A stretch of DNA of 64,000 bases from Bacteroidales bacterium (GTDB lineage Bacteria; Bacteroidota; Bacteroidia; Bacteroidales; UBA10428), in NCBI GenBank assembly GCA_016931575.1, contig JAFGEO010000062.1:1-64000 (forward strand), written 5' to 3'. Position numbers and translations under genes: made by a program. Of this stretch, positions 1 through 22,517 are shown piece after piece (positions within the stretch are counted from its first letter, which is position 1; the number at the start of each line of letters is the position of its first letter). A model generated the notes under the pieces. It saw nothing but the letters and a program-made list of their open reading frames with translations. It was not told the origin of the DNA and did no database searches.

Positions 1-1857
1 ATAGGGCATGTCGAGTCTTCCCCAGTGTGCAGCTGCACCATATGTGGTACTCGTGCCGATCATAAGAGCGGCATACTCACCCATAAGATTATCGGTTCTT
101 TTGGACCAGGATACAACGGTTTCTGCCAGCGTGATTTTTTTATTGTAAACCCAGGCCGAAATAGTAAAAGCAGAGTTCCAGCTAAGGCTCAGCGGGGCTT
201 CTTCGCTAAGGACGAAGTAGTCGCTGCCATCCAGGTTAATGGATTTTACCTTATAGATGGTGTCGACCACCGGATTTCCATGGATAGTGAATGCACCGTT
301 TAAGGATCCGGCATTTGCAGGGTCATCTTCAATTTCTCCGGCCAAAAGCAAACTGGCATCCAGCTCCACCAACAGGCTTTTTGAACTGGCCGTGCCCGGA
401 CCATCATCGGATGTTACTGGTGTTAATGAAGGAAGCTCAAATAGTTCGCTGTACACCTTCACATTCCAGATTGCGGCAAACATGCCGGTTTTCTGGGTAC
501 CCGAAACGGTGATCCTCAGGTAGCGGGCAGTGACATCACCATCGTCGATCATTGGGCTGCCGCTCTCCCGGTTGTCCGACCTGTCGGCGAAAACTTCCCA
601 GCTGGCGCTGTCTGAGGAGTACTCGATGGTATACTGGTAGTAGTAAAATGCATATTCGAACTGTGTCATCACACGTTTGATGTTGATATCGGATCCAAGG
701 TCGATGACCAGGGAATGTGGCATATCGTTATCTCCTGCGCGCCAAATGGTTCCGTTATTGTTATCCACGACACAGGAAGGATAGTAGACATAGTCATTTA
801 CACCATCTTCCAGGTGATAATATGATGTAGCAGATGCGGCAGCTCCATGGGCGTGGTCTGTGGCTGTTATCTGGTTTGGGCCCAGGTAACCGATCCCGGC
901 ATGGCTTGGTGCGACTTTCCGTATGGTGCTGTCATTTTCAAAGATCAGGCTGTCAACACAAAGCTGGCGGAATTCACCACCCGTGCTGTGCGGATTGTCA
1001 TGACGGTGATAGACAATGTAGTAGTCGTCTACTTCTTTCAGTACGGAATGGTGCCCGGGACCGTCGACACTTCCGTCGGCATTTGTCTCCAGGATCGGAT
1101 TATTCTCGCCAAAAGTAAAAGGTCCGACAGGACTGTCACTGTATGCGTATTGTACCCGGTAGCTGCTTGCCTGGCAGTCCCCTGATGAATACATCATAAT
1201 GTATTTATCATTTTTCTTCAGCATGTAGGGAGCTTCGAAAATTTCGGGCAGCTGGCTGTTCGCGATGTTGCCGCTCTCAAGGATGGTAACCATATCGTTG
1301 GTGTCCACCCTTGCCCATGCCAGACCGGCAAAGCTGCTGATCCAGGTGCCATAGTAGACATAAAGCGATCCGTCGTCATCCAGGAAGTAATGCTGGTCAA
1401 GAGCGGGAACGCCTCCAATGGTATTTGGGGTAAAAAGGGCATTGCCGGAATTGATCGCTGTCCAGGGTCCCAAGGGACTGTCAGACTCATAGCCATAGAC
1501 GTTGCAGCCAGCCTCGCAGTTTCCGTGGAAATAGTAGTATTTGTTGTTCACGAAAAGCACATCCGGGGCCCAGATATTGGTCAGGCTGGTCGGAATGTCA
1601 ATCTCCTGGTTATACCAATTCACAAAATCCTTGCTTTGCCAGATCTGTGGCTCTCCTGAAGCCAGGCGCACACCGTCCCCTGTTGCATAGATGTAATACG
1701 TATCATCAACTTTTAATATGGTGGGGTCGGCAAAATAGCCCGGGGTCAGCGGGTTGCCATTATTCTGATCCAGGTATGAAGGCTCCTGTGACAGAGCCGG
1801 AAAAAGCGTGCCTGTCAGCAGGGTAATCAGTAACAGGTATAACTTGCTTCGTTGCAT
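1..1857 (-). CDS. Secreted glycoside hydrolase family 43 protein with discoidin and LamG-like domains (3' end outside window)
   Basis: The reading frame is open from the ATG at 1857 to the left edge (619 codons, no stop), so the C-terminus is missing. A signal peptide ends near residue 23 (LFPALSQ). A five-bladed GH43 fold follows: Asp44 in YFADPT is the expected general base, Asp99 in WAPDV the pKa modulator and Glu208 in FEAPYM the general acid, so the catalytic triad is intact. Residues about 355-470 look like an F5/8-type C (discoidin/CBM32-like) domain, and about 490-619 like the start of a LamG/concanavalin-type domain. GH43 enzymes are mostly alpha-L-arabinofuranosidases, arabinanases or xylosidases; I cannot fix the specificity. 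It diverges from the hydroxyproline dehydratase operon and sits near two beta-L-arabinofuranosidases, so arabinose-containing plant glycans are a plausible substrate. A T9SS tail could lie beyond the edge. Confidence 0.88.
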   Translation of the reverse strand, partial: MQRSKLYLLLITLLTGTLFPALSQEPSYLDQNNGNPLTPGYFADPTILKVDDTYYIYATGDGVRLASGEPQIWQSKDFVNWYNQEIDIPTSLTNIWAPDVLFVNNKYYYFHGNCEAGCNVYGYESDSPLGPWTAINSGNALFTPNTIGGVPALDQHYFLDDDGSLYVYYGTWISSFAGLAWARVDTNDMVTILESGNIANSQLPEIFEAPYMLKKNDKYIMMYSSGDCQASSYRVQYAYSDSPVGPFTFGENNPILETNADGSVDGPGHHSVLKEVDDYYIVYHRHDNPHSTGGEFRQLCVDSLIFENDSTIRKVAPSHAGIGYLGPNQITATDHAHGAAASATSYYHLEDGVNDYVYYPSCVVDNNNGTIWRAGDNDMPHSLVIDLGSDINIKRVMTQFEYAFYYYQYTIEYSSDSASWEVFADRSDNRESGSPMIDDGDVTARYLRITVSGTQKTGMFAAIWNVKVYSELFELPSLTPVTSDDGPGTASSKSLLVELDASLLLAGEIEDDPANAGSLNGAFTIHGNPVVDTIYKVKSINLDGSDYFVLSEEAPLSLSWNSAFTISAWVYNKKITLAETVVSWSKRTDNLMGEYAALMIGTSTTYGAAAHWGRLDMPY

Positions 1858-2273: not shown

Positions 2274-3062
2274 ATGCAGGGAATTGTTTTTGATATAAAG
2301 CGATTTGCAGTACATGATGGTCCGGGCATACGCACAACCATCTTTCTGAAAGGCTGCCCGCTAAGTTGCTGGTGGTGCCATAATCCCGAGGGGATCTTCC
2401 CGGAAATTCAATATTGCACAAAGACTGTACGACTGGGAGAAAAGACTTTCCACGAAGCGGAGCAGGTAGGGAAGGAATACGATTTAAGACAAGTGTTAAG
2501 CGAAATTGAGAAAGAGGCATTATTTCATGAGGAATCCGGAGGAGGGGTCACCCTCTCGGGAGGGGAACCCATGATGCAGTTTGAATTTGTCCTGGAACTC
2601 CTGCAAGAACTCCGCAGCAGGGAGATTCATACCTGCCTCGACACCTCAGGGTATTTTACCCTGGAGAAGCTGCAGCAGGTAATGCCCCTGGTGAACCTGT
2701 TTCTTTTCGACCTGAAACTGCTGGATGATCAGAAACATTTAAACTATACCGGGGTTTCAAACCGGCGTATTCTTCAGAACCTGGAAACCCTGATCCAAAG
2801 CAGGTGCCCGGTGATCATCCGGTATCCCCTGATTCCCGGGATAAACAACGGGGAGAAGGACCTGGAGGCATTGCATGCCCGACTGGATAACCGGGTTAAG
2901 GAGATTCATTTTTTGCCATTTCATGCGATTTCGGTTGGGAAATGGAGCCGTATTGGACTGGAATACAAATTAAAAGGATTAAAACCACAGCCTGAAAGCA
3001 GTGTTACCGATATCAGGGATAAATTCACGCAATTAGGGTATAAGGTAAGTATTGGAGGATAG
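2274..3062 (+). CDS. Glycyl radical enzyme activating enzyme (radical SAM), hypD activase
   Basis: A radical SAM activase that would use a [4Fe-4S] cluster and S-adenosylmethionine to place the glycyl radical on the dehydratase encoded 16 bases downstream. The cluster-binding CxxxCxxC motif is Cys28, Cys32 and Cys35 (GCPLSCWWC). The SAM-binding glycine motif is SGGEP, following the ESGGG stretch typical of this family. The protein has 262 residues, against about 300 for most dehydratase activases. The cysteine-rich ferredoxin-like insert that usually follows the CxxxCxxC motif is absent: only Cys48 lies between the motif and SGGEP. In this respect it resembles pyruvate formate-lyase activase, although the rest of the sequence is of the dehydratase-activase kind. 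The gene order, activase first, and the close spacing indicate one operon with hypD. Confidence 0.93.
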   Translation: MQGIVFDIKRFAVHDGPGIRTTIFLKGCPLSCWWCHNPEGIFPEIQYCTKTVRLGEKTFHEAEQVGKEYDLRQVLSEIEKEALFHEESGGGVTLSGGEPMMQFEFVLELLQELRSREIHTCLDTSGYFTLEKLQQVMPLVNLFLFDLKLLDDQKHLNYTGVSNRRILQNLETLIQSRCPVIIRYPLIPGINNGEKDLEALHARLDNRVKEIHFLPFHAISVGKWSRIGLEYKLKGLKPQPESSVTDIRDKFTQLGYKVSIGG

Positions 3063-3078
3063 TATAAAATAAGGTATT

Positions 3079-5442
3079 ATGAACGAACGAGTAAAAAAAT
3101 TAAGGGAACAAAGTCTCAATGCCGTGAATAAGATTAGTGTGGAACGTGCTTTGCTTGTCACAGAATTTTATCGTTCCATTGAGGGAAAAGAATTGCCTGT
3201 GCCTGTACAGAGGGCCAGGTGCCTGTACCATATTCTGGATAAAAAAAATATATGCATAAATCCCGGGGAACTGATTGTCGGTGAAAGGGGTCCCGCCCCC
3301 AAGGCTACGCCAACCTATCCGGAAATTAGTCTCCATTCACTCGAGGACCTGCGTATCCTCAACAGCCGGCAGAAGGTATCCTTTAAAGTTGACAAGGATA
3401 CGACCGATGCCTATGTAAAAACCATCATCCCCTTCTGGAAAGGGAAAAGCAACCGGGATATCATCATGCGGCTGCTGCCGCAACACTGGCACGATGCCTA
3501 TGATGCCGGGATTTTCACCGAATTTCAGGAGCAAAGGGCCCCGGGACATTCCGTATGCGGAAATAAGATCTACCGCCTGGGAATGCTGGACATCATTGAG
3601 CAGATCAAAGCACAGACAGCCATCCTGAAATCCGAGACTGAATCCGTGACCGACTCACAGCTGGCAGAGCTCGAAGCTATGAAAATTGCCGCTGAAGCGA
3701 TCATTCGCTTTGCTCAGCGCCATGCATCCTGCCTGAAGGAACTTGCCAAAGCAGAAAAGGACCAGGACCGCAAAAATGAGCTGCTGAAAATGGCCGATGT
3801 ATGCCAAAAGGTACCCGCTCATGCCCCCGAAAATTTCCATGAAGCACTCCAGTACTACTGGTTTGTACACCTCGGTGTGATTACGGAGCTGAACCCCTGG
3901 GATTCCTACAACCCGGGCCGGCTCGATCAGCATTTGTATCCCTTCTACAAAAAGGGTTTGGAGGCCGGCTCGCTAACCAAAGAAGGGGCAGTAGAGCTCC
4001 TGCAGTGCTTCTGGGTTAAGTTCAACAATCACCCTGCTCCTCCGAAGGTAGGTGTGACAGCCCTTGAAAGTAACACCTATACGGATTTTGCCCTGATCAA
4101 CCTCGGCGGGCTTACTGAAAACGGCAGGGATGCGGTAAACGAATTAACCTACATCATTCTCGACGTCATCGAGGAGATGAGGCTGCTGCAACCCAGCTCC
4201 ATGGTACAGGTGAGCAAACAAAATCCCGATGCCTTCGTGAAAAGGGCACTGAAAATTATTAAAACCGGTTTCGGTCAGCCCTCCATCTTCAATACCGATG
4301 CCATCATTCAGGAGCTCCTGCGACAGGGAAAATCCATTCAGGATGCCCGTAACGGCGGTGCCAGCGGTTGTGTGGAGACCGGTGCCTTCGGGACGGAGAG
4401 TTACATCCTGACCGGTTATTTCAACCTGACAAAGATCTTTGAACTCACCCTTCACAACGGTTTCGATGTGCGCACCGGGAAGCAGGTCGGACTAAATACA
4501 GGGAAGGTTAAAGAATTTAATGATTTTTCCACCCTCATGGAAGCTTTCGAAAAGCAGGTCAGGTATTTCGCCGGGATCAAAATTGAAGGGAACCTGATCA
4601 TCGAAAAACAGTTTGCCCATAACATGCCCGTACCCTTCCTCTCACTGCTCGTTGATGATTGCATTGGCAATGCCTGCGACTACAATGCCGGAGGTGCCCG
4701 TTACAATACCAGCTACATTCAGGGTGTAGGGCTGGGTACCCTGACCGATTGTCTGACAGCCGTAAAGTACCACATCTATGATAAGAAGAAGCTGGGCTGG
4801 GAGAACCTGTGCTATGCACTGTCAGAGAACTTCGTGGATTTTGAAGACTTACGAAAGGACCTGATCTACAACACTCCAAAGTACGGAAACGATGACGATT
4901 ATGCAGATGACCAGGCTGTGCAGATCTTTGAGATCTTCAGTAAAGCGGTAGAAGGCATTCCTACCTATCGCGGGGGGACCTTCAGGATTAATATGCTGCC
5001 CACTACTTCACATGTTTATTTTGGCAGTGTTACCGGTGCTACTCCTGATGGGCGACTGGAAGGACAGCCCCTGTCCGAAGGGATCTCACCGGTACAGGGA
5101 GCCGACAGGCAAGGACCTTCGGCAGTGATTAAGTCGGCATCCAAATTTGACCATATCCGTACCGGGGGAACCCTCCTGAACCAGAAGTTCACCCCGGCAT
5201 TCTTTTCTTCGGAAGAGGCACTGGGCAAGCTCTGTTCGCTGGTTCGTACCTATTTCCGAATGGATGGGCACCATATCCAGTTCAACGTGGTTTCGGCAGA
5301 TACCCTCCGAAAAGCTCAGAAGAACCCGGAATTGTACAGCGATCTCATCGTCAGGGTGGCGGGCTATTCCGATTACTTCAACGACCTGGGAGAAGACCTG
5401 CAGAATGAAATTATCAAACGTACCGAGCACGAATCAATTTAA
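3079..5442 (+). CDS. hypD: Glycyl radical enzyme, probable trans-4-hydroxy-L-proline dehydratase
   Basis: A 787-residue glycyl radical enzyme that probably dehydrates trans-4-hydroxy-L-proline to 1-pyrroline-5-carboxylate under anaerobic conditions. The thiyl cysteine and partner glutamate are Cys431 and Glu433 in SGCVETGAFG; the glycyl radical site is Gly762 in RVAGYSDYF near the C-terminus. As I recall the Clostridioides difficile HypD structure (789 residues), its key residues are His160, Asp278, Ser334, Asp339, Phe340, Cys434, Glu436, Tyr450, Thr645 and Gly765. Here the same residues occur at 157, 275, 331, 336, 337, 431, 433, 447, 642 and 762, a constant offset of three. That argues against choline lyase, glycerol dehydratase or pyruvate formate-lyase. 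No proC gene for the next step, reduction to proline, lies nearby. The gene ends 54 bases from a convergent GH127 gene. Confidence 0.9.
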   Translation: MNERVKKLREQSLNAVNKISVERALLVTEFYRSIEGKELPVPVQRARCLYHILDKKNICINPGELIVGERGPAPKATPTYPEISLHSLEDLRILNSRQKVSFKVDKDTTDAYVKTIIPFWKGKSNRDIIMRLLPQHWHDAYDAGIFTEFQEQRAPGHSVCGNKIYRLGMLDIIEQIKAQTAILKSETESVTDSQLAELEAMKIAAEAIIRFAQRHASCLKELAKAEKDQDRKNELLKMADVCQKVPAHAPENFHEALQYYWFVHLGVITELNPWDSYNPGRLDQHLYPFYKKGLEAGSLTKEGAVELLQCFWVKFNNHPAPPKVGVTALESNTYTDFALINLGGLTENGRDAVNELTYIILDVIEEMRLLQPSSMVQVSKQNPDAFVKRALKIIKTGFGQPSIFNTDAIIQELLRQGKSIQDARNGGASGCVETGAFGTESYILTGYFNLTKIFELTLHNGFDVRTGKQVGLNTGKVKEFNDFSTLMEAFEKQVRYFAGIKIEGNLIIEKQFAHNMPVPFLSLLVDDCIGNACDYNAGGARYNTSYIQGVGLGTLTDCLTAVKYHIYDKKKLGWENLCYALSENFVDFEDLRKDLIYNTPKYGNDDDYADDQAVQIFEIFSKAVEGIPTYRGGTFRINMLPTTSHVYFGSVTGATPDGRLEGQPLSEGISPVQGADRQGPSAVIKSASKFDHIRTGGTLLNQKFTPAFFSSEEALGKLCSLVRTYFRMDGHHIQFNVVSADTLRKAQKNPELYSDLIVRVAGYSDYFNDLGEDLQNEIIKRTEHESI

Positions 5443-5496: not shown

Positions 5497-7914
5497 CTAT
5501 TTCACCACCCACTCATGAATGCCGGATGCAAATTCTTTTGGCATGGTAACCAGCAGGCGAAGTGCTGTGGTTTCTACCGGCTCAAATTCAATGCTGTCCC
5601 ACTTATCTTTGCTGACGGGATAAGCAGCAGTTGCTTTTACGGGGATCCACTTATCCCCCGACTTATACTGAACCTCCCAGCTGGCAGGGATCCTGCAGCC
5701 TCCAAACGGCGCATCGTCATACCAGTATACCTCGCAGGAAGAGACGGTCGCTTTCTCTGCAAAATCGTACTGGATCCATTCTGTCGTATCCTTTTCAGGC
5801 CACCAGTGAAGGAAGGGCCAGGTATGGTCCCCGGATTCTGAAGGCATCAACTGGTCGTTAATAGAAGCCAGCATCCGTGAGGGGTGGCCTGCACTTACTG
5901 TGCTTGTACTGGCTATGGTTGGTAAAGGCAATGGCCGGATGTTTTTTTCGTTTATGGGCATCCAGACCATCATCTCTCCCGGACCCCGGTTGTTCCAGGA
6001 GTAGTAGGGTATCAGGCTGATATTTTGTTCTTCGCCGTATTTTACGCCACCCTCTTCGGTGCTTTGGGCAGCTTTGGCCTTTCCGTTCAGTACCACAACG
6101 CCGTTCAGGAAGTCAGGTTTGAATTCAGGAGTGAAATCCTGGTTTTCATCAACGATGAGACAGAGGGCATAGCCGTCTTTTGCCTCAGGCCATTCCATGG
6201 TGTATACCAGCGGGCCGCGCTGCAGGGCCATCTTGTTCAGATCGTCTTTCACCTTTTCATTGGCAATGATCTCCCTGGGTTCAATGGGAAATTCGATTCG
6301 AACAACATCGCCCTTTTTCCATTTCCTTGCGATCACAGCGTAGCCTTTTTCCGTTACAATTTCCCGTTCTACGTCGTTTACGTAAAGTCTAACATTCTTT
6401 TCCAGCTTGTTTTTGAAATGATAGAGGTCGCCAGGGAGGACTTCTTCTTCCGCCCATCCAGGTATGCGAAGTTTCAGGGTAAATACTGATTTTTTCTCAG
6501 GATTCACACCGATCTCAACATTTCCCTTCCAGGGATACCCGGTTTTTTGTCTGATCTCAACCGGGTTACCGTCAAATTCGAAGTTAGCTGTGTTCGACAG
6601 GTACAGGTTCACATAAACCGCATCATCTGATGTGGCATAGATATAACCGGGTACCGAAGGGAGGGTCCTTGCGAGGTTGGGAGGGCAGCATGCGGTATTG
6701 TCCCATCCGAAACGCTGGTGCTGTCCGATGGACTCCAGGACATTCGGATAGAAGAAACGGTCTCCCGAAAGCGATACTCCCGACAGGAATGCATTATAGA
6801 GCGTGCGCTCCAGTACGTTGTAGTATTTTGCATCCCCTGTGGAAAGGAACATCCTGTAGTTCCACATGATGTTACCGACTGATGCGCATGTTTCGCAGTA
6901 AGCCCGCATGTTAGGCAGGATATAGGGAGGATCGAAACCTTCGTTTCCACCCCCGGATCCAATCCCCCCGGTGACATACATCTTCTTGGTTACCAGATCC
7001 TCCCAGATGGCAGTAAGTGCATGTAAGTAGGAAGTGTCGGCGTATAGTTTTGCGATATCGGCCATGCCGGAATACATATAGGTTGCACGTACGGCATGTC
7101 CGACGGGTTCACGCTGGTCGACAACCTTCTCGTGTGCCTGGCTGTATTCTTCACCTCCTGGTCCCCTGATATCCAGGAAAAATTTTGCCAGGTCACGGTA
7201 TTCTTTCTTTCCGGTTGCTTCGTACATCCGTACGAGCCCCATTTCAACCACCTGGTGACCGGGAGCGATCTCCAGTTTACCGGGTCCCAGATCTTTCACC
7301 AGCAGGTCGGCAGTCTTGATGGCCAGGTCGAGCATGGTGCGTTTTCCGGTGGCAGCGTAGTGTGCCGTTGCGGCTTCAAAAAAGTGGCCACAGTTGTATA
7401 ATTCATGACTGCCGGCGTACCCCTTGGCCGCACCGGTCCATCGGGTAGAATCGGCCCATGGGTGAGGATGTTCCGGATCAATGGTACGGGTAGTATAAAT
7501 ATACCCGTCGGGTTCCTGCGCCAGGCTGATATAATGGATCAGTGTGTCGAGGCGGGCCTCCAGGAGGGGGTCCGGATTGGATAACAGGGAATAGCTTGCA
7601 GCTTCAATCAGTTTGTAAACATCCGTATCATTAAACGGATAGTTGGTCTGCATCTTTCCTTCCATGAGGCCTCCGGCAATTTTGAAATTATTTACGGCCC
7701 CGGATTCATAGATCTTTTTAATGGCTATGGGTATGGTGACCTCATAGTTCTGCTGGATTTTCGGTGCCCAGAATTCATCGGTAACTTTCACCTTCGTGAA
7801 GGGAACCCCTTCAATAAGTGATTGGGCATTTATCTCTCCTGCAGAGAAAGTTGTTATAAAGAAAAAGGCTGCAATCAAGGGTATGAGCCCGTACTTGTTT
7901 TGTTTATTCTTCAT
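5497..7914 (-). CDS. GH127-type (DUF1680) beta-L-arabinofuranosidase with C-terminal discoidin-like domain
   Basis: An 805-residue exported enzyme with a signal peptide ending near residue 30 (GEINAQ). The DUF1680 catalytic domain spans about residues 32-640. Its zinc site is Glu341 and Cys343 in YCETC, plus Cys409 and Cys410 in ACCPPN. This matches Glu338, Cys340, Cys417 (nucleophile) and Cys418 in Bifidobacterium longum HypBA1, as I recall it. A glutamate in NEGFDPP is placed where the acid/base residue is expected. Residues about 670-805 resemble an F5/8 discoidin-like sugar-binding domain, absent from the neighbouring paralogue. HypBA1 removes beta-1,2-linked L-arabinofuranose from hydroxyproline-linked oligosaccharides. 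GH146 and some RG-II enzymes share the fold and CC motif, so the linkage is unproven. It starts 11 bases after the upstream GH127 gene and is surely co-transcribed with it. Confidence 0.92.
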   Translation of the reverse strand: MKNKQNKYGLIPLIAAFFFITTFSAGEINAQSLIEGVPFTKVKVTDEFWAPKIQQNYEVTIPIAIKKIYESGAVNNFKIAGGLMEGKMQTNYPFNDTDVYKLIEAASYSLLSNPDPLLEARLDTLIHYISLAQEPDGYIYTTRTIDPEHPHPWADSTRWTGAAKGYAGSHELYNCGHFFEAATAHYAATGKRTMLDLAIKTADLLVKDLGPGKLEIAPGHQVVEMGLVRMYEATGKKEYRDLAKFFLDIRGPGGEEYSQAHEKVVDQREPVGHAVRATYMYSGMADIAKLYADTSYLHALTAIWEDLVTKKMYVTGGIGSGGGNEGFDPPYILPNMRAYCETCASVGNIMWNYRMFLSTGDAKYYNVLERTLYNAFLSGVSLSGDRFFYPNVLESIGQHQRFGWDNTACCPPNLARTLPSVPGYIYATSDDAVYVNLYLSNTANFEFDGNPVEIRQKTGYPWKGNVEIGVNPEKKSVFTLKLRIPGWAEEEVLPGDLYHFKNKLEKNVRLYVNDVEREIVTEKGYAVIARKWKKGDVVRIEFPIEPREIIANEKVKDDLNKMALQRGPLVYTMEWPEAKDGYALCLIVDENQDFTPEFKPDFLNGVVVLNGKAKAAQSTEEGGVKYGEEQNISLIPYYSWNNRGPGEMMVWMPINEKNIRPLPLPTIASTSTVSAGHPSRMLASINDQLMPSESGDHTWPFLHWWPEKDTTEWIQYDFAEKATVSSCEVYWYDDAPFGGCRIPASWEVQYKSGDKWIPVKATAAYPVSKDKWDSIEFEPVETTALRLLVTMPKEFASGIHEWVVK

Positions 7915-7925
7915 GATTGTTTGAA

Positions 7926-9878
7926 TTAGCGCGAGTTAACTTTTATCCAGACTGCCATTTCTCCCGGAGACCTGTTGGCCCAGAGAAAGTATGGTATTGC
8001 TGTTAGAATTTTATCGTTTTGTTCAACCTTAAGTGTTCCTGTTCCTCCCAGCAAGGTCTCATTGTATTGGTACTCAGACGGCACATCGGCAGGGAGTTCC
8101 AGTTTGCTGATCTTTCCGTTATCGACTTCCTCCAGGCAGTAAACAATTGGGCCCCTTTCGAAGGCTATGCGGCCGCTGTCTGCTGCGACTTTCGCATTCG
8201 CCAGTACTTTGCGAACGGGCATCGGAAGGCTCACCTCCAGGCGGTCATTTTTCTGCCAGGATCGTTTGATACAGGCATAGCCTTTCTCCACGGTGTACTT
8301 CACCGGCTTGCCATTCAGGCTTATTTCCGGTTGATAAGCGGTCTGATCCATGTAGTGGTACAGGTCTCCCTCGAAAGGAGCAGTGCCCAGCCAGGAGGGT
8401 ATTCTGACCTTTATGGTGAAGTCTGCCTTCTTCTCCGGAGATACCAGGATCGATACGGACCCGCTCCAGGGATACTCCGTTTGCTGTTCAAGCTTCACAG
8501 TTGTTCCTCCCAACCCGATTTTCGCTTCGGAAGCTACAAACAGGTTCACATATACCCCGGCATTTGTCGTGGCATAGATCAGGTCGGGAACACGGGCCAT
8601 GAACCGGCATACGTTACCCGGACAGCAGGCCACACCAAACCAGGGACTACGTTGATAGGTGCCGTCAGATGCCAGTGGATTGGGATAGAAGAAATGCATT
8701 CCGTCTTCGGAGATACCGGAGATCAGACCATTGTACAAGGTTCTCTCCAGTACATCCATGTATTTTGAATTGCCCGTTGAAAGGAAGAGGCTTTGGTTCC
8801 ATAGTACATTTCCAATGGCAGCACAGGTTTCATTGTAGGCTTCCTTGTTGGGGAGGGCATAGGCCTCGCCAAATGCTTCTCCCTCATGTCTGGCACCTAC
8901 GCCGCCAGTGATATACAGTTTCTTCCCGGTAACATCCTTCCATAATTCTTCCGACTTTTCATGATATGCCGGGCACCCGGGCAGATACCTGGCCAGGTCT
9001 GTCATGGCCGTATACATATAGGTTGCCCTGACAGCATGCCCAATGGCTTCCGGTTGCTCCAGGATGGGTGCGTGTTGTTGCAGGTAGGGTTTGTTGTTAT
9101 AGATGGCAAAGCGGGTACCTTCCGGATGTTCCTTATATTCCTGCTGCTTTCCGCGTACATCGAGGAAGAATCGGGCCTGTTCGAGGTATTTCTTATCCCC
9201 GGTAAGCTGGTAGAGTTTGATGAGGCCAATTTCAATTTCCTGGTGTCCGGGTGCAGCTTCCTTTTTTCCCCAGCCGAATACCTCACAAACGAGGTCGGCA
9301 TTCTTCCTGGCGATATTCAGCAGTGCATCCTTTCCGGTTGCCAGGTAGTAAGCAATAGCTGCCTCATAGAGGTGTCCGGCATTGTAGAGCTCGTGACTAA
9401 CCCAGATATCGGTCCAGCGATCGCTTCCCGCTCCGGGTGAGGGGTGGTCAGGATCTGCCGAGCGGGCTGTAAAGAGGTACCCGTCTTCTTCCTGGGCCTG
9501 GCCGATAAGGGTGATCAGGCTGTCAGTGTACCTTTCCAGATCAGGATCAGGTTTAATTCGCAGCGATCCTGCAGCCCCTTCGATGATCTTGAAAACGTCG
9601 GTATCATTATAACGTTCACCCTCATGTTTTTTGGTGCTGTTACCCGCGGCGACCGAAAAGTTTTCAATGCGCCCGGTTTCCTCGCACATGCGAAAGGCGT
9701 AGGGGATGGTTACATCAATATTACGCCTGACCAGGGGTTCCCAGAAACCTCCCCTGAGGGTTACATTACGTATATCTAAGGCTTTGATTTCGTTGCTATC
9801 CTGGCTTATGGGTGTGTTCTTTCCTGTACAGCCCGGGAGTAATAAAATGCCAATGGGTATCAGAAATAGTAGTTTCAT
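7926..9878 (-). CDS. GH127-type (DUF1680) beta-L-arabinofuranosidase, lipoprotein
   Basis: A 650-residue lipoprotein; the lipobox cysteine is Cys17 in LLPGC, so it is probably membrane anchored. The whole mature chain is one DUF1680/GH127 domain, close in length to the 658-residue HypBA1. The zinc-site and nucleophile residues are Glu350 and Cys352 in YNETC, and Cys418 and Cys419 in ACCPGN. The expected reaction is retaining hydrolysis of beta-L-arabinofuranosides with cysteine as nucleophile. Compared with the next gene it lacks the C-terminal discoidin-like domain and differs in anchoring, which suggests the two act at different sites or on different chain lengths. It is transcribed before the other GH127 gene and lies 156 bases downstream of the peptide transporter gene on the same strand. 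Confidence 0.92.
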   Translation of the reverse strand: MKLLFLIPIGILLLPGCTGKNTPISQDSNEIKALDIRNVTLRGGFWEPLVRRNIDVTIPYAFRMCEETGRIENFSVAAGNSTKKHEGERYNDTDVFKIIEGAAGSLRIKPDPDLERYTDSLITLIGQAQEEDGYLFTARSADPDHPSPGAGSDRWTDIWVSHELYNAGHLYEAAIAYYLATGKDALLNIARKNADLVCEVFGWGKKEAAPGHQEIEIGLIKLYQLTGDKKYLEQARFFLDVRGKQQEYKEHPEGTRFAIYNNKPYLQQHAPILEQPEAIGHAVRATYMYTAMTDLARYLPGCPAYHEKSEELWKDVTGKKLYITGGVGARHEGEAFGEAYALPNKEAYNETCAAIGNVLWNQSLFLSTGNSKYMDVLERTLYNGLISGISEDGMHFFYPNPLASDGTYQRSPWFGVACCPGNVCRFMARVPDLIYATTNAGVYVNLFVASEAKIGLGGTTVKLEQQTEYPWSGSVSILVSPEKKADFTIKVRIPSWLGTAPFEGDLYHYMDQTAYQPEISLNGKPVKYTVEKGYACIKRSWQKNDRLEVSLPMPVRKVLANAKVAADSGRIAFERGPIVYCLEEVDNGKISKLELPADVPSEYQYNETLLGGTGTLKVEQNDKILTAIPYFLWANRSPGEMAVWIKVNSR

Positions 9879-9939
9879 GGTTTATGTTAAGGTTACTAAG
9901 CAGACATTTTTATCCTGTCATTCCAGCATACAATATTAG

Positions 9940-9983
9940 AAAACCTGCGACAGAAAAAGCCTTTCTTTTCGATCACAGGTTTT
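9940..9983 (-). terminator. Inverted repeat between transporter and GH127 genes
   Basis: AAAACCTG at 9940-9947 pairs with CAGGTTTT at 9976-9983 around an A/T-rich loop that can itself pair in part. In the direction of transcription the right arm reads as a short T run. It may attenuate or terminate transcription after the transporter gene, or mark an RNA processing site. Confidence 0.4.
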
Positions 9984-10034
9984 AAAATCCGGACCAACAT
10001 TTGGAATACTGGTTCAGAAATATGGAATTATTGA

Positions 10035-11513
10035 TCAGTGGATATCTTTCATCAGCCTGTTCAGTAGCGGGGAGATGAGAAGCAGGACAATTCCTGCACC
10101 TAATGTAGTGAAAGTCAGGAAGGAATAGAGTCTCATCTGCGGAAAATAGTTATGCAGGATGCTTTCCAGCACCCCGGCAAGGTAGTTGGCCAGGGCAATG
10201 CTTCCGAACCAGATGCCCATCATAACCGATACGATGGGACGGGGAGACAATTTGGTCACCATCGACAAGCCAATGGGGGACAGGCAAAGTTCACCCATGG
10301 TATGCATGAAATACACACCCAGGAGCCAGAAGGGTGATACCGCACCAGCTTGTCCTGCTCTGCCCGCTGCCAGGTTCATGATCACAAAACCCACGCTCAT
10401 CAGCATGAGACCTATGGCAAACTTAACAGGAGTCCGGGGTTCCTTTTTGCGCTTATTTAGCCATACCCACAGCATGGCAAAAAGCGAGGCAAAGGCAACG
10501 ATGTAGAACGCAGGAACCATCTGAAACCAGGAGGCTGGAAATTCACCGAACGGGGTCAACCGGTCAGTCTGGTGCTCTGCAAAGAGGTTAAAGGTTCCCC
10601 CTGCCTGCTCATAGCCCGACCAGAACAGGATGTTAAAAAAGGCCAGGATGAAAATGACGGATATATTGCTCCATGCCTTGCTACCTTTGGTATTTCTGAT
10701 AATGATCCAGGCAAGCACCGAGGTTCCTGCAACCACGAGCGCCCATATGAAACCAGTCTGGATAGCAGAGCTGATCATACCCCAAAGCCGGAGCCCTCCC
10801 CATACCAACAAAAGGATGGAGCCAATGTAAAGGATGATATCCCGGCCATCCCGGCCGGTCAGGCGATGTATGCCGGCTGCCAGGTTCCGTGGGGGCAGAC
10901 CTGCTGTGCCCAGTTTGCTGCGTTGGGTATAAAACCAGATCGCACTCAGGATCATTCCGACACCTGCTGAAGCGAATCCCCATGCCCAGTCGATTTCCTG
11001 TCCGAGAAAACCCGCAACGAAAGGCCCCAGCAGCGCACCAACATTGATGCCCATGTAAAAAATGGTAAAGGCAGAATCTTTCCGTGCGTCATTCTCTTCG
11101 TATAGTTCACCGACAATGGTGGAAATATTTGCTTTAAAGAAACCAGTTCCCATGATGATCAGACCGAGCCCCAGGTTCCGGTTGGATTCCCGGAGTACCA
11201 TCTCTCCGAATTCCGAGTAGGCCATAAAAAACTGACCAATAGCCATCAGGATGGCCCCGATATATACCGCTTTCTGCTGACCGAGGAACTTATCGGCAAG
11301 GTATCCCCCGATGATGGGTGTCAGGTAAACCAAACCCGTAAAAGTGGCGTAGATCTGCAGGGCGTCGGCCCGGACAAGACCAAAACCTCCGTTTATCAGC
11401 TCGGTGGTAAGGTAAAGGGTAAGGAGGGCACGCATGCCATAGTAGCTGAAGCGTTCCCACATTTCGGTGTAAAAGAGGACCATCAGGCCCCTGGGGTGTT
11501 TGATTTTGCTCAT
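10035..11513 (-). CDS. POT/PTR family proton-coupled oligopeptide transporter
   Basis: A 492-residue inner-membrane transporter of the proton-dependent oligopeptide (POT/PTR2) family, which imports di- and tripeptides with protons. The proton-coupling signature ExxERFxYYG is present near the N-terminus (EMWERFSYYGMRALL, about residues 17-31). A second family motif appears around residue 150 (FYMGINVGALLGP). Hydrophobic stretches are enough for 12 or more membrane segments. It is transcribed in the same direction as the two GH127 genes and directly upstream of them. That is unusual for an arabinofuranosidase cluster, where one expects SusC/SusD or a sugar permease. It suggests the cargo after deglycosylation is a small peptide, possibly hydroxyproline-containing. 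The family is certain; the cargo is inferred only from context. Confidence 0.92.
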   Translation of the reverse strand: MSKIKHPRGLMVLFYTEMWERFSYYGMRALLTLYLTTELINGGFGLVRADALQIYATFTGLVYLTPIIGGYLADKFLGQQKAVYIGAILMAIGQFFMAYSEFGEMVLRESNRNLGLGLIIMGTGFFKANISTIVGELYEENDARKDSAFTIFYMGINVGALLGPFVAGFLGQEIDWAWGFASAGVGMILSAIWFYTQRSKLGTAGLPPRNLAAGIHRLTGRDGRDIILYIGSILLLVWGGLRLWGMISSAIQTGFIWALVVAGTSVLAWIIIRNTKGSKAWSNISVIFILAFFNILFWSGYEQAGGTFNLFAEHQTDRLTPFGEFPASWFQMVPAFYIVAFASLFAMLWVWLNKRKKEPRTPVKFAIGLMLMSVGFVIMNLAAGRAGQAGAVSPFWLLGVYFMHTMGELCLSPIGLSMVTKLSPRPIVSVMMGIWFGSIALANYLAGVLESILHNYFPQMRLYSFLTFTTLGAGIVLLLISPLLNRLMKDIH

Positions 11514-17720: not shown

Positions 17721-19325
17721 CTAATTTTCTACTTCATAAGGCCATCCCGTGTTTTGGATAAGGGTGCCCTGGGATAATTCGATCTGAGAGATCGGGACTT
17801 CGAACAAACCATTCGTTTCCGGCCTGAAATTCACAGGATAAGGTGCCAGGCTGAAATATTCATCGCTTTCATTCCAGTCCAGGATCTGATCGGCTGTAGC
17901 CATGTCCTGCCGTATAACATCCCAGTAGCGGAGCCCTTCGAAAGCAAGCTCCAGCCTTCGTTCCTCGAGGATATTTTCATAGCTCACCGATTTTGCCGGG
18001 GCACTGCCGGCAAAGGCACGGTTACGTACGCGATCGAAATATTGCTGCGCAAGGGCTGCATTGTCATCCAGGTGCAGTTCGGCACCGGTAAGCAGAACTT
18101 CGGCAAAGCGAATCTCCGGCTTATCATCCGGGTTATCGATTATGTAATTACCTCCCAATTCTGTGGTGGAATGCGCATCGGTTGCTGTATCCCATATCGG
18201 GACGAATTTCCGCCAGTTGTAGCCCGTATACTCACGCTGGTCGCTCTCATCGAATTCAAGTCCCAGCTCGTCCCAACCCAGGATGGAAGCATCGCGACGT
18301 GTGTCTCCAGCTTCGTAGGCATGGTACAAGGCAGGATTTACGGTACAGGCTCCCCAGCCGTTGGCGTATGTACTGATGTTTTGGTTCCGCAGTCCGATCA
18401 TGACCTGCCAGTTGTTACCATCATGCAGGTTTGCATCGCCGTAACCTTTGTAGGTGTATTTAATCGGGAAAACCGTTTCGATGTTGTCTTCCCCGACAAA
18501 TCCATCGAGGGTTTGTACCCAGAGATTGTTAAAATCCGGAACCAGGTCGTAGCCACTGTTGTCGATTACATCATCCACATAGGCCGCTGCCTCGGCACGG
18601 GTGACTATCCCTGCGAGGTCAGGTTTTTCATAATAATCGGTATAGTAAAGGAAAACCCTTCCGAGTAAAGCTTCTGCGGCCCATTTAGTAACCCTTCCAT
18701 ACTCAGAAGGATCGATGCTCTGATAAGGTACGGCTTCCAGGGTTTCAATGGCATAAACCAGGTCTTCTGCAATCTGTGCGTAAACATCCTCCGGAGGAGA
18801 AGGGGGAACGTTCAGGTTGTTAACGTCGATCACACTGGAGAGCAGGGGAACATTTCCCCACATTCTGACCAGGTCGAAATAGAAGTAAGCCCTCAGGAAG
18901 CGGGCTTCAGCAGTAAAACGCTCCTCAGACATGTTGTCTTCATTTTCCCATCCGCTAACATCTCCCAGATTCTGTAGCAAAACATTACAGCGATAGATGC
19001 CCGTCCAGTATTTTCCCCAGCATTCATCATGCGGGTTGTTGAATCCATAACTAATAAAGTCATCCCAAACCTGATACCGTTGGTCATCGGATGCCCCGGC
19101 ACCACCAAAGCAATTATCCGAGGCTGCTTCCGTGATTTGCAGGATATGATCGTAGTAGCTCCATTGAAGGACGTCGTAGGCTGCGACGAGTCCCTGCAAA
19201 GCATCTGCAGGAGTTTGATAGAAGTTGCCGACTACTTTTTGCCCGTATGGGGATACCTCCAGCCATTCCTCGCATGAGCCGAAGGCAAGTAGTCCTACTA
19301 GTGCGATTAAATATATTTTTTTCAT
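17721..19325 (-). CDS. susD: SusD/RagB family outer-membrane nutrient-binding lipoprotein
   Basis: A 534-residue SusD-like lipoprotein that captures glycans or peptides at the cell surface for the partner SusC. The lipobox cysteine is in LLAFGSC at about residue 18. The mature start CEEWLEVSPYG is typical of the family, as are the TPR-type helices (FLRAYFYFDLVRMWGNVPLL, about 148-167) and the C-terminal EERRLELAFEGLRYWDVIRQ segment. I placed the start at the ATG at 19325; an in-frame TTG at 19334 would add three residues and is less likely. It follows susC by 12 bases and ends before a strong terminator. No glycoside hydrolase is next to the pair, so the substrate is open. Confidence 0.95.
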   Translation of the reverse strand: MKKIYLIALVGLLAFGSCEEWLEVSPYGQKVVGNFYQTPADALQGLVAAYDVLQWSYYDHILQITEAASDNCFGGAGASDDQRYQVWDDFISYGFNNPHDECWGKYWTGIYRCNVLLQNLGDVSGWENEDNMSEERFTAEARFLRAYFYFDLVRMWGNVPLLSSVIDVNNLNVPPSPPEDVYAQIAEDLVYAIETLEAVPYQSIDPSEYGRVTKWAAEALLGRVFLYYTDYYEKPDLAGIVTRAEAAAYVDDVIDNSGYDLVPDFNNLWVQTLDGFVGEDNIETVFPIKYTYKGYGDANLHDGNNWQVMIGLRNQNISTYANGWGACTVNPALYHAYEAGDTRRDASILGWDELGLEFDESDQREYTGYNWRKFVPIWDTATDAHSTTELGGNYIIDNPDDKPEIRFAEVLLTGAELHLDDNAALAQQYFDRVRNRAFAGSAPAKSVSYENILEERRLELAFEGLRYWDVIRQDMATADQILDWNESDEYFSLAPYPVNFRPETNGLFEVPISQIELSQGTLIQNTGWPYEVEN

Positions 19326-19337
19326 TTTTATCAAGAT

Positions 19338-22300
19338 TTAGAATGCAAGATTAAGTCCGACAAGTGCAGTTCGCGGTGTTGGATAGTACCCGTTGTCAAT
19401 ACCAATGGAGTAGTTCTCGTAGCGTGTTTCATCCAGATCGCCATAGCCTACTTCCGGATCATACCCGGGATAGTTGGAGAAAGTATATAGGTTCTGCAGG
19501 GTAACATAGATACGGAATTGTGAAGCCACCGGGTTATTCCTGAAGATCCCTTTTCCAAAATCATAGCCCAATGTCAGTCCCCTGACTTTCATGTACGAAC
19601 CATCCTGCACGTAGAGGTCGGAGATACGCTTGTAGTTCTGGTTACCTTCGGCACCGGTAGTTACTCGCGGAATGGTATTGGATGTTCCCGGACCAGTCCA
19701 GCGGTTCAGGATATCGGTGGTGTAGTTACTGATAGCTTTCTCCTCTGAGCGATAGCCATAAAGTACCTCATTACCATATACTCCCTGGAGGATAAGTGCA
19801 AAGTCGAATCCTTTATAGAAAACATCAAATGAAAATCCGTAGCTAAGGTCGGGATGAGGATTTCCGATCATTACACGGTCTTCGATGTCGATTGTTCCGT
19901 TGCCGCTGAGATCTCTGAAGATTACATCACCGGGTACAGCACTGGGCTGTATGGGTCTGCCAGAGGGGCCGACATATTGGTCAATCTCCTCCTGGGTCTG
20001 GAAAACACCATCGGTTTCGTAACCCCAGAAGTAGCCGATCGGGTATCCGACTTCTGCACGATAGCACTCGGTCTGACCACCATGAAACAGCTGTCCTTCT
20101 TCACCGTGGATAACACCTTCCGGGTTGTCGATCCTGAGTACCTCGTTCTGGTTCATGGCCATGTTTCCGCTGACATTGATGGAGAAATCCCCGACGTTGA
20201 AGCGGTAGCTGAGCATTAGTTCGATACCCTGGTTACGGACATCGCCACCATTGACAGTTGGTGCCTCGGTACCGGCCAGGTCGGAGACGGGAGCGATGAT
20301 GAGCCAGTCTTTCGTTGTCTTACGATAGATATCGAAAACGAAATTAAAACCAGCAAAACGGCTGTCGATACCAATGTTTGTTTGTTCTGAGGTTTCCCAT
20401 TTAAGGGCAGAGTTATGGATTTTCTCAGGTGATGCTCCCACATATTGTTCATCACCTGCGCCGAAGTAATAATCCCTCTCCACGGAAGCAATGGTAGCTT
20501 CATACATGTAATCAAGGATCTTGTCATTTCCATTTCTTCCCCAGCTGCCTCGGATCTTCAGGAAGTCGATGAAAGAGACATTGAAGAAATCTTCTTCTGA
20601 GATTACCCAGCCTGCAGAGAATGAGGGGAAATAACCGAATTTGTTATCAGGTCCGAATTTGGAAGAACCATCCGCACGGTAAATGGCAGAAAATAGGTAT
20701 TTTTCATCGTAGTCGTAATTTACCCTGCCATAAAATGAAGCCAGTCTTCTGAGGACTTTCCCCCCTGAAGTGACCTGGGTTTCGGAGTTGGTAGCTCCAT
20801 CCAGGATAGCGTTATCAAAATCGTTGATAACCAGGTTTTCTTTTTCTCCTCTGACCCAAAATCCATTGTACTCTTCTAAGGTATTACCAAGGAGGGCATT
20901 GATTCGGTGCTTGCCAAAGGTGTGCGTATACTGGAAGAAATTTTCCCAGTTGTAAGTGAAATCCCGGCGCATTTCCATAATGGCCCGGGAATTATCGTTG
21001 AACACGATAGAATTCAGGTGATAGATGGGATTGTATTCGTTGGTAAGCTCATACCCAAGGTCGATGTTCATGCGGGAGGTGAACGTAAAACCTTTAAGGG
21101 GTTCCACTTCAATGAACATGTTCCCCAGTAATTTGTCCCTTTCGGTCACTCCCAGGAAATTATAGTAGAGTGCAGCCAGGGGATTTGCATCGCTAAAAGC
21201 CAGCTGCGGGATCCAGGAAACCCCGAAACCGTCAGAAGTGGTATCGCTGTATGCCGGGAAAGTGGGGCTGGTATTCAGAAAATTTCTGACGGTGTTATTT
21301 CCGTAGATACTCTCTGTTCGTACACCTTCCTGTTTTTCACGGCTGTAAACCAGGTTCTGCCCGATACGCACGCGATCGTTATAGAGCTTGTGCTCAGAGT
21401 TCAGTCGGAGGGATATACGCTGGTAATTAGAGCGGCTGTCGCCCATGGTATCGGGGCCAATGATCCCTTCCTGTTTGAAATAGGAGATAGAAGTGGAGAA
21501 TACACTGGTTTCATTACCCCCGTTCATAGCGAACACATGGCTGGCTGTCGGGGCATTTTTCCGGAACATGTAATCCTGCCAGTCGGTACCCTCGCCAATG
21601 GTATCAATCAATTCCTGGGGATAAAAACCGGTAAATCCCATATTGGTACGCTGCTCATTCTGGATCATCAGGTAATCCGATGCACCCAGCATATCGAGTT
21701 TTTTTGGTGTATTCTGGACGCCCATGTAGGAGTCGAAAGAAACCCGGAGTTTACCTTGTTCACCTTTTTTGGTGGTGATCAGAATAACGCCGTTAGCAGC
21801 TCTCGCTCCATAGATAGAAGAAGAGGCAGCATCTTTCAGGATGTCGATCGATTCGATATCGGCAGGGTTGAGAAAACGCACATTGTCAGTGACCATACCG
21901 TCTACAACATACAGGGGGCTCGAGTTACCTACTGTACCGAGTCCGCGGATATTCACCCTCAGGTCTTCACCAGGCTGCCCGCCATTGGCGGTGATGTTTA
22001 CCCCCGGGGCAAGACCTTGCAGGGCCTGCTCCAGACGAAGGGTTTTCTTCTGGGTCAGCTCCTCGCTGCCAAGGTGCATGTTGGCGCCGGTTGAGAGTTT
22101 CTTCTTCTGAACGCCATACCCAATTACAACAACCTCGTCGAGGTCGAGCAGACTAGGTGAAAGTTCAATATTTAGAACATTCGATGTACCAACAGTGATT
22201 TCTTCGTCAAGGTATCCGATAAAGCTGAAAACCAGGATGTCACCTGCTTTTGCTTCAACAGAATAGTTACCATCCACATCGGTAATGGTACCCGTGGTCG

Positions 22301-22517
22301 TTCCTTTAATCAGAATGGAAACACCGGGTAAGGCTTCGCCGTTGAGGGCATCGGTAACAATACCTGTGATAACATCTGAAGCATCCTGCTTAAGGGTCTC
22401 GGGCAGGAGGTTGCTTGCCTGTAGTGTCGGGGTGAGCAGTGTAAATCCCAGCAGCATTATGAGAATTGACCGCATAAGATTTAGTCCCGTCATACAGGAG
22501 GGGCTTTTTTCTTTCAT
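19338..22517 (-). CDS. susC: SusC/RagA family TonB-dependent outer-membrane transporter
   Basis: A 1059-residue SusC-type transporter, the usual family length. A signal peptide of about 35 residues is followed by a CarboxypepD_reg-like domain (about 48-120; GIVTDALNGEALPGVSILIKG). The TonB-box region is DEVVVIGYGVQKK. The plug domain (about 145-250) carries IRGLGTVGNSSPLYVVDG and ILKDAASSSIYGARAANGVI, both diagnostic for SusC. The barrel ends in LVGLNLAF. It forms a two-gene operon with susD. An exact TAnnTTTG (TAAATTTG) occurs on the minus strand at 22562-22569, about 45 bases before the start, without a well-spaced -33 box. No sigma/anti-sigma or hybrid sensor regulator adjoins the pair; the nearest regulator is a GAF histidine kinase upstream. 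Confidence 0.96.
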   Translation of the reverse strand: MKEKSPSCMTGLNLMRSILIMLLGFTLLTPTLQASNLLPETLKQDASDVITGIVTDALNGEALPGVSILIKGTTTGTITDVDGNYSVEAKAGDILVFSFIGYLDEEITVGTSNVLNIELSPSLLDLDEVVVIGYGVQKKKLSTGANMHLGSEELTQKKTLRLEQALQGLAPGVNITANGGQPGEDLRVNIRGLGTVGNSSPLYVVDGMVTDNVRFLNPADIESIDILKDAASSSIYGARAANGVILITTKKGEQGKLRVSFDSYMGVQNTPKKLDMLGASDYLMIQNEQRTNMGFTGFYPQELIDTIGEGTDWQDYMFRKNAPTASHVFAMNGGNETSVFSTSISYFKQEGIIGPDTMGDSRSNYQRISLRLNSEHKLYNDRVRIGQNLVYSREKQEGVRTESIYGNNTVRNFLNTSPTFPAYSDTTSDGFGVSWIPQLAFSDANPLAALYYNFLGVTERDKLLGNMFIEVEPLKGFTFTSRMNIDLGYELTNEYNPIYHLNSIVFNDNSRAIMEMRRDFTYNWENFFQYTHTFGKHRINALLGNTLEEYNGFWVRGEKENLVINDFDNAILDGATNSETQVTSGGKVLRRLASFYGRVNYDYDEKYLFSAIYRADGSSKFGPDNKFGYFPSFSAGWVISEEDFFNVSFIDFLKIRGSWGRNGNDKILDYMYEATIASVERDYYFGAGDEQYVGASPEKIHNSALKWETSEQTNIGIDSRFAGFNFVFDIYRKTTKDWLIIAPVSDLAGTEAPTVNGGDVRNQGIELMLSYRFNVGDFSINVSGNMAMNQNEVLRIDNPEGVIHGEEGQLFHGGQTECYRAEVGYPIGYFWGYETDGVFQTQEEIDQYVGPSGRPIQPSAVPGDVIFRDLSGNGTIDIEDRVMIGNPHPDLSYGFSFDVFYKGFDFALILQGVYGNEVLYGYRSEEKAISNYTTDILNRWTGPGTSNTIPRVTTGAEGNQNYKRISDLYVQDGSYMKVRGLTLGYDFGKGIFRNNPVASQFRIYVTLQNLYTFSNYPGYDPEVGYGDLDETRYENYSIGIDNGYYPTPRTALVGLNLAF

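Follow-up and report, generated by a model that had tools for sequence, protein, structure and literature searches.

Why should a gene for hydroxyproline dehydratase (HypD), a glycyl radical enzyme (GRE), lie among genes for predicted arabinofuranosidases in a member of the Bacteroidales? This question is raised by the window, i.e. the whole stretch of 64,000 nucleotides that was analysed, near the start of which these genes are found (Table 1). Our preferred reading, to which we assign a probability of roughly 0.7, is that they form one locus for the use of plant hydroxyproline-rich glycoproteins (HRGPs), with HypD and a short activase as the last step: extensin or arabinogalactan protein (AGP) would be deglycosylated, its peptide digested and the hydroxyproline passed to HypD. 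Extensins are cross-linked, arabinosylated, hydroxyproline-rich proteins and, to our knowledge, no complete anaerobic route for their degradation is known. Most of the interest lies in the surroundings of hypD, which were absent from an earlier sequence-only reading of this DNA, rather than in the enzyme itself.

Table 1. Genes of the hypD region, with positions counted from the first base of the window.
Feature	Position	Strand	Remarks	Basis
GH43 with F5/8C domain, apparent signal peptide	1..1857	-	cut at base 1 by contig end	
Putative HypD activase, radical SAM, 262 aa, short form without ferredoxin-like insert	2274..3062	+	16 bp upstream of hypD	
HypD (trans-4-hydroxy-L-proline dehydratase)	3079..5442	+	787 aa; Cys431, Glu433, Gly762	residues, profile, tree
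GH127 beta-L-arabinofuranosidase-like, 805 aa, apparent signal peptide	5497..7914	-	ETC + CC motifs; convergent with hypD, 54 bp	
Second GH127, 650 aa, apparent lipoprotein signal	7926..9878	-	ETC + CC motifs; 11 bp from first GH127	
POT-family oligopeptide:H+ symporter	10035..11513	-	strand of GH127 pair, 156 bp upstream; presumed member of the locus	

HypD and its activase

The sequence-only reading had claimed that ten residues of C. difficile HypD recur in the window protein at a position three lower, and all ten do so with the same amino acid (H160, D278, S334, D339, F340, C434, E436, Y450, T645 and G765 in C. difficile numbering), while any other offset between -12 and +12 gave 0 or 1 match. 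In the alignment, the offset equals 4 up to approximately residue 37, where one residue is missing from the C. difficile protein, and 3 from there onwards without a further gap. According to the accessible text of Backman et al. 2020 (PMC7077986), these positions are exactly those mutagenised in C. difficile HypD, and four extra pocket residues given there (F152, R156, W277 and K326) are likewise matched in the window protein.

When the HypD proteins of 101 loci were aligned together with C. difficile HypD, glycerol dehydratase and seven further GREs taken from related genomes, the complete set of ten residues was seen in 100 of the 101 loci, compared with 4/10 in glycerol dehydratase and in six of the other GREs, and 3/10 in the remaining one. 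S334, D339, Y450 and T645 are found in none of these eight controls, D278 in one (L032, a distant row) and F340 in four; the first four are therefore the most telling residues, and D278 nearly so, since they are absent, or almost absent, from the controls, while the H, C, E and G residues and F340 tell little about HypD identity among GREs. As far as the accessible part of PMC7077986 goes, Asp278 and Asp339 are HypD-specific and Ser334 replaces the Phe of other eliminases; for Asp278, L032 constitutes the one exception in the present set. The only locus with an incomplete set is that of genome G009 (L055, HypD at 8038-10539), whose radical glycine is out of frame and thus missing, since the reading frame departs near the C-terminus; sequencing error and decay are indistinguishable here. 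A second GRE group was also noted in the related genomes (L033-L036), scoring 558-573 bits against the HypD model and having N, H, P, Q or R, F, C, E, F, I and G at the ten sites.

Other comparisons gave the same assignment. The NCBIfam equivalog NF043068 ("trans-4-hydroxy-L-proline dehydratase") was matched with 1218.2 bits (curated cut-off 1100), nothing else in the genome matched the HypD model at E <= 0.001, and the best solved structure was C. difficile HypD 6vxc with 982 bits, followed by glycerol dehydratase (528), with HplG 7vua at 387. A FastTree tree was built from 66 of the 101 HypD loci, C. difficile HypD, glycerol dehydratase and six other GREs (35 HypD loci and L037 were left out), and the 67 HypD rows were split from the 7 others with a support of 100, some branches, including two in the outgroup, being long. 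The window protein, which the sequence-only reading had placed among hydroxyproline dehydratases and proposed to check by such an alignment and subfamily tree, thus groups with C. difficile HypD, and the assignment is borne out by residues, profile score, best structure match and tree alike. With the C. difficile enzyme (6vxc/6vxe) it shares 54% identity over aligned positions, all ten residues and an adjoining GRE activase gene. Judged by its sequence, the protein is thus HypD and adds one more member to a family already known. Scores, residues and tree led us to reject HplG, diol dehydratase, sulfolyases and other GREs as its identity. It is very improbable that it is a GRE for another substrate (a diol dehydratase, a D-hydroxyproline lyase such as HplG, or a relative of HypD that acts on modified hydroxyproline), for which the low confidence of the AlphaFold pocket leaves some room (mean pLDDT 75.5, with poor active-site loops and values <50 at, among others, 151-159, 274-277, 325-337, 429-442, 642-677 and 759-765), but against which stand the ten catalytic and binding residues, the four pocket residues and the scores given above.

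The upstream gene was named by position and superfamily, because with 276.9 bits its product stays below the curated threshold of 425 bits for the HypD-activase equivalog NF043069 (best stretch starting at model position 96 of 299). It scores 266.1 bits against TIGR02494 (glycyl-radical-enzyme activating proteins; cut-off 174.35), is the only protein of the genome above this cut-off, and contains the radical SAM Cx3Cx2C motif as CPLSCWWC. By motif, the insert with CxxCxxCxxxC motifs is absent, so that relative to the NCBI HypD-activase model (299 positions; the comparison is with the model rather than with the C. difficile activase itself) this is a short form without the ferredoxin-like insert. 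A pattern search in 88 activases located beside HypD (ORFs of at least 150 aa, leaving out the incomplete L057, L071 and L103) found no CxxCxxCxxxC motif in 83, two in each of L052, L053 and L054, and one in L122 and in L134. These five loci lie towards the base of the HypD tree, on which the trait requires one change. The AlphaFold model of the activase (pLDDT 92.1) has 3cb8 as its closest fold (TM 0.85/0.91, 31% identity), and the E. coli PFL activating enzyme (3cb8/3c8f) is both the closest fold and the closest solved sequence; both proteins are without the ferredoxin-like insert, although the E. coli enzyme serves pyruvate formate-lyase and the one described here is partnered with HypD. 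Most GRE activases carry auxiliary clusters of unknown function, as stated in the accessible parts of PMC11528403 and PMC10239695, the latter also describing the function of the ferredoxin-like domain as largely unknown, the clusters being required for a lasting radical in one enzyme and not in another. Since some of these activases have the ferredoxin-like motifs and others lack them, while both forms apparently serve the same reaction, they constitute a natural comparison for the role of this domain.

The neighbourhood and its presumed continuation

A point against our reading is that hypD shares no transcript with the GH127 pair, with which it is convergent, or with the GH43 gene, from which it is divergent. 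Each GH127 protein comprises three GH127 domains (Pfam), with the ETC/CC zinc/catalytic motifs at 341/409 and 350/418, respectively; signal peptides were judged by eye from the N-termini, and the second protein has a lipobox. The nearest structure for both is 6ex6, which we take to be BT3674 of an arabinogalactan locus. Aceric acid hydrolase (NF049879, a GH127 subgroup) was rejected as their identity (461 and 410 bits, cut-off 950), and no GH121 beta-L-arabinobiosidase was identified here, the lone sign of one being a weak match of a GH127 C-terminus to the HypBA2 model with 20 bits (cut-off 3200). The POT symporter was rejected as a conserved partner, since among the 101 loci a full-strength match was found in the window only, along with two weak matches 8-10 kb away. 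Elsewhere in the window there is a SusC/SusD pair (17721-22517) with an adjoining histidine kinase (22688-23989), parted from the HypD cluster by a phosphatidylserine decarboxylase gene and others, and, away from HypD, a CotH protein with a secretion tail (31698-35126).

Contig C92, from which the window is taken, ends at base 1, and the missing part of the GH43 gene seems to begin contig C143 of the same genome. The window GH43 aligns with residues 21-618 of its relative in G009 and the first ORF of C143 with residues 621-795, and the genome held one other match to the window GH43 at E <= 1e-20 (32% identity, residues 34-468). As the contig ends do not overlap, the join is one that we infer; contamination of the assembly amounts to 4.35%. 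C143 encodes a DPP-IV/S9 peptidase, a secreted protein with a HEFAH motif (HEFAH protein), a 280-aa protein without Pfam match, GH146 and a hybrid two-component regulator (HTCS), and further CotH, aminopeptidase P, GH127, a DUF6055 protein, SusD, SusC and prolidase (GH127, GH146, SusC, SusD and prolidase were assigned by similarity to scanned relatives). The SusC/SusD pair and glycoside hydrolases (GHs) of a polysaccharide utilisation locus are present on C143 and would be linked to the window through the split GH43 and G009. With the presumed join, the locus would have SusC, SusD, HTCS and several GHs in common with the polysaccharide utilisation loci of Bacteroidetes and would differ from them in its proline-type peptidases, peptide symporter and radical amino-acid dehydratase. 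The M64 peptidase of this genome is encoded on contig C136, and the part of that contig that was read showed no GH127.

The HEFAH protein (275-289 aa, apparently secreted) occurs at L149:3106-3975 (the C143 copy of the window genome, G000), L039:3748-4605, L040:6081-6932, L055:5982-6848 and L136:2669-3496. HEFAHTIH is present in 5/5 aligned copies, the L039 copy had no Pfam or NCBIfam match, and these proteins seem to make up a family of metallopeptidases, as yet undescribed, that is associated with HypD/GH127/GH146 loci. CotH-kinase-domain proteins recur in GH127/M64 loci (L149:12293-15682, L146:6020-9409, L145:6282-8021 and L147:3151-4962), and DUF6055 proteins recur beside GH127 (L145:3901-6081, L147:688-2862 and L150:380-4306).

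Proposed route and the target glycoprotein

In the proposed route, secreted GH43, GH127 and GH146 enzymes would strip L-arabinofuranose chains off hydroxyproline, and the bared peptide would be cut by proline-aware peptidases (DPP-IV/S9, the HEFAH protein and, in relatives, M64). The products may be imported via SusC/SusD and the POT symporter, and hydroxyproline would be freed inside the cell by aminopeptidase P and prolidase (M24), the genes presumably being regulated jointly. The activase is predicted to place a glycyl radical on Gly762 and Cys431 to start the reaction, by which HypD would dehydrate trans-4-hydroxy-L-proline to pyrroline-5-carboxylate (P5C). Finally, P5C could be converted to proline by P5C reductase or to glutamate by P5C dehydrogenase, both encoded elsewhere in the genome (one proC on contig C7 and two P5C dehydrogenases above cut-off).

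The accessible parts of two sources describe precedents for the first steps: Ara4-Hyp is stripped by GH43 HypAA, GH121 HypBA2 and HypBA1 (PMC6085000), and GH146 enzymes of Xanthomonas and B. longum attack arabinose that is bound directly to Hyp (PMC10850190). Given these characterised GH43, GH127 and GH146 relatives, the order GH43, GH127, GH146, peptidases, uptake and HypD fits the proposal. Judged from the same accessible parts, the HypAA/HypBA1 (GH127)/HypBA2 cluster of B. longum and its Xanthomonas counterpart have in common with the present locus GH43 together with GH127 or GH146 for Hyp-linked arabinofuranosides; there the sugar is used, whereas here peptidases and HypD would consume the protein too, and GH121 was not identified.

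AGP is the main alternative substrate, because 6ex6 is the nearest structure for both GH127 proteins and the GH43 subfamily could be a galactanase. In its strict form, this alternative holds that AGPs (or pectic side chains) are the target, that HypD handles their hydroxyproline backbone and that extensin is not the main substrate. We consider it unlikely, although to be taken seriously: AGP is likewise hydroxyproline-rich, but no GH16, GH30 or GH79 was detected by Pfam among the proteins scanned (part of the ORFs of C143 and of the first 24 kb of the window), even if the GH43 could supply a galactanase, and GH146 beside HypD fits Ara-Hyp. GH27, which occurs in relatives, could act on the galactosyl-serine of extensin, although also on AGP. 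In favour of AGP, the GH127 enzyme BT3674 acts with exo-galactanases on larch arabinogalactan, according to the accessible part of PMC10850190.

As for the narrower form of the HRGP reading, we see about an even chance that this is a dedicated anaerobic locus for HRGPs such as extensin, combining arabinose removal, M64 and new HEFAH peptidases, destruction of hydroxyproline by a glycyl radical and an activase lineage without the auxiliary-cluster domain. On present evidence, a utilisation locus with HypD, peptidases and arabinofuranosidases is a new variant, HypD itself belonging to a known family. In a search made mostly outside the subscription literature, no paper was found that links hydroxyproline dehydratase with arabinofuranosidase, or glycyl radical chemistry with extensin or HRGPs, nor one that treats glycyl radicals and hydroxyproline together with arabinose and the plant cell wall. 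Extensin use by Latescibacteria was proposed from GH127 (PMC4454575), a source whose accessible part presents no hydroxyproline-degrading step and terms the information on such extensin degradation limited, and the setting of HypD in the accessible part of PMC7077986 is that of gut Clostridiales and collagen-type hydroxyproline. The locus offers a joint route for sugar, peptide and hydroxyproline that can be tested, also in Thermophagus xiamenensis DSM 19012, which is a deposited strain, and that, if true, would give HypD a place in the breakdown of plant matter.

Gene order and enrichment among relatives

Among 60 related genomes, 21 have HypD above the cut-off, counting that of the window, and with a fragment in G006 the total comes to 22; within the genus of the window only 2 of 9 genomes have it, one of these as a fragment. 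GH127/146 is present in 17 of the 22 genomes (no match in five), and in eight of them the distance to HypD is no more than 8 kb, versus 0.39 expected (P = 8e-10, assuming random placement and independent genomes). The expected number is on the high side, full 8-kb flanks having been assumed even where contigs are short, but seven of the eight positive genomes come from the family of the window (7 of its 12 HypD genomes), the other being G054, so that the genomes are not independent and the P value is inflated by kinship. On the HypD tree, many forks of which are weak, this nearness requires at least seven changes, loci on short contigs being counted as lacking it. M64 peptidase genes, present in 15 of the 22 genomes, lie within 8 kb of HypD in four (0.07 expected), and 5/16 of them are within 8 kb of GH127/146 (0.23 expected).

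The gene orders are varied. The single contig of G009 has SusC-SusD-GH43-GH127-GH127-aminopeptidase P-prolidase-HEFAH-activase-HypD in approximately 21 kb. On one strand, L043 and L047 have M64-activase-HypD-GH127, the genes either overlapping slightly or lying no more than about 30 bp apart, and T. xiamenensis (L136) has GH27-HEFAH-GH146-DPP4-activase-HypD, while L038 has activase-HypD-GH146 (29 bp). In G012 (L145 and L039), SusD, DUF4859, DUF6055, CotH, GH51-like, GH127, GH27 and GH127 are followed by prolidase, HEFAH, DPP4, activase, HypD, GH146 and M64, and in G014 and G022, GH43, GH27, M64 and GH127 occur together on contigs other than that of HypD.

In 80 further named loci, proline-type peptidases were found within 3 kb of HypD in 32, and there were 33 peptidase matches in 398 kb near HypD versus 2 in 440 kb at 5-10 kb. 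The queries came from L039, L048 and L055 and were chosen after peptidases had been seen near HypD there, the 80 test loci being fetched separately; at least two of these appear to duplicate relatives (L065/L042 and L129/L050), neither with a peptidase match. GH127/146 was near HypD in only one of the 80 (L136, 3.9 kb) and within 3 kb in none, many contigs being short; the link is thus so far limited to the family of the window, G054 and Thermophagus. Peptidases are therefore the wider partners of this HypD branch, whereas arabinofuranosidases are, so far, a speciality of these three groups.

These counts bear on a second alternative, namely that HypD is a general scavenger of free hydroxyproline (e.g. 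from collagen or gelatine) and that its proximity to arabinosidases is accidental or due to hitch-hiking. Such an explanation draws on the 79 of 80 named loci without a GH127/146 neighbour, on the 32 with a nearby proline peptidase and on the concentration of positives in one family, yet we judge it improbable in view of the excess over chance expectation, the repeated changes on the tree, the differing GH127/146 genes, positions and strands among relatives, and the GH146 near HypD in Thermophagus.

Unlike in gut Clostridiales, where HypD stands beside P5C reductase, no such neighbour occurs in the window, where arabinofuranosidases and a peptide symporter adjoin HypD and its activase instead; C143 adds peptidases and SusC/SusD. 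P5C reductase was likewise rejected as a neighbour in relatives: proC was found in 11 of 12 genomes searched, never near HypD (0.66 Mb away on the one contig of G009, on other contigs in the remaining genomes). The HypD neighbourhood of L110 (SACF01000012.1), titled Alphaproteobacteria, is much like those of L105 and L085 (Bacteroidales), and its label may be wrong. In two loci, a protein of the proline racemase / hydroxyproline epimerase family is encoded directly downstream of HypD (L079:12486-13526, scanned, and L119:4605-5666, assigned by the same cluster), suggesting another fate for proline or Hyp there.
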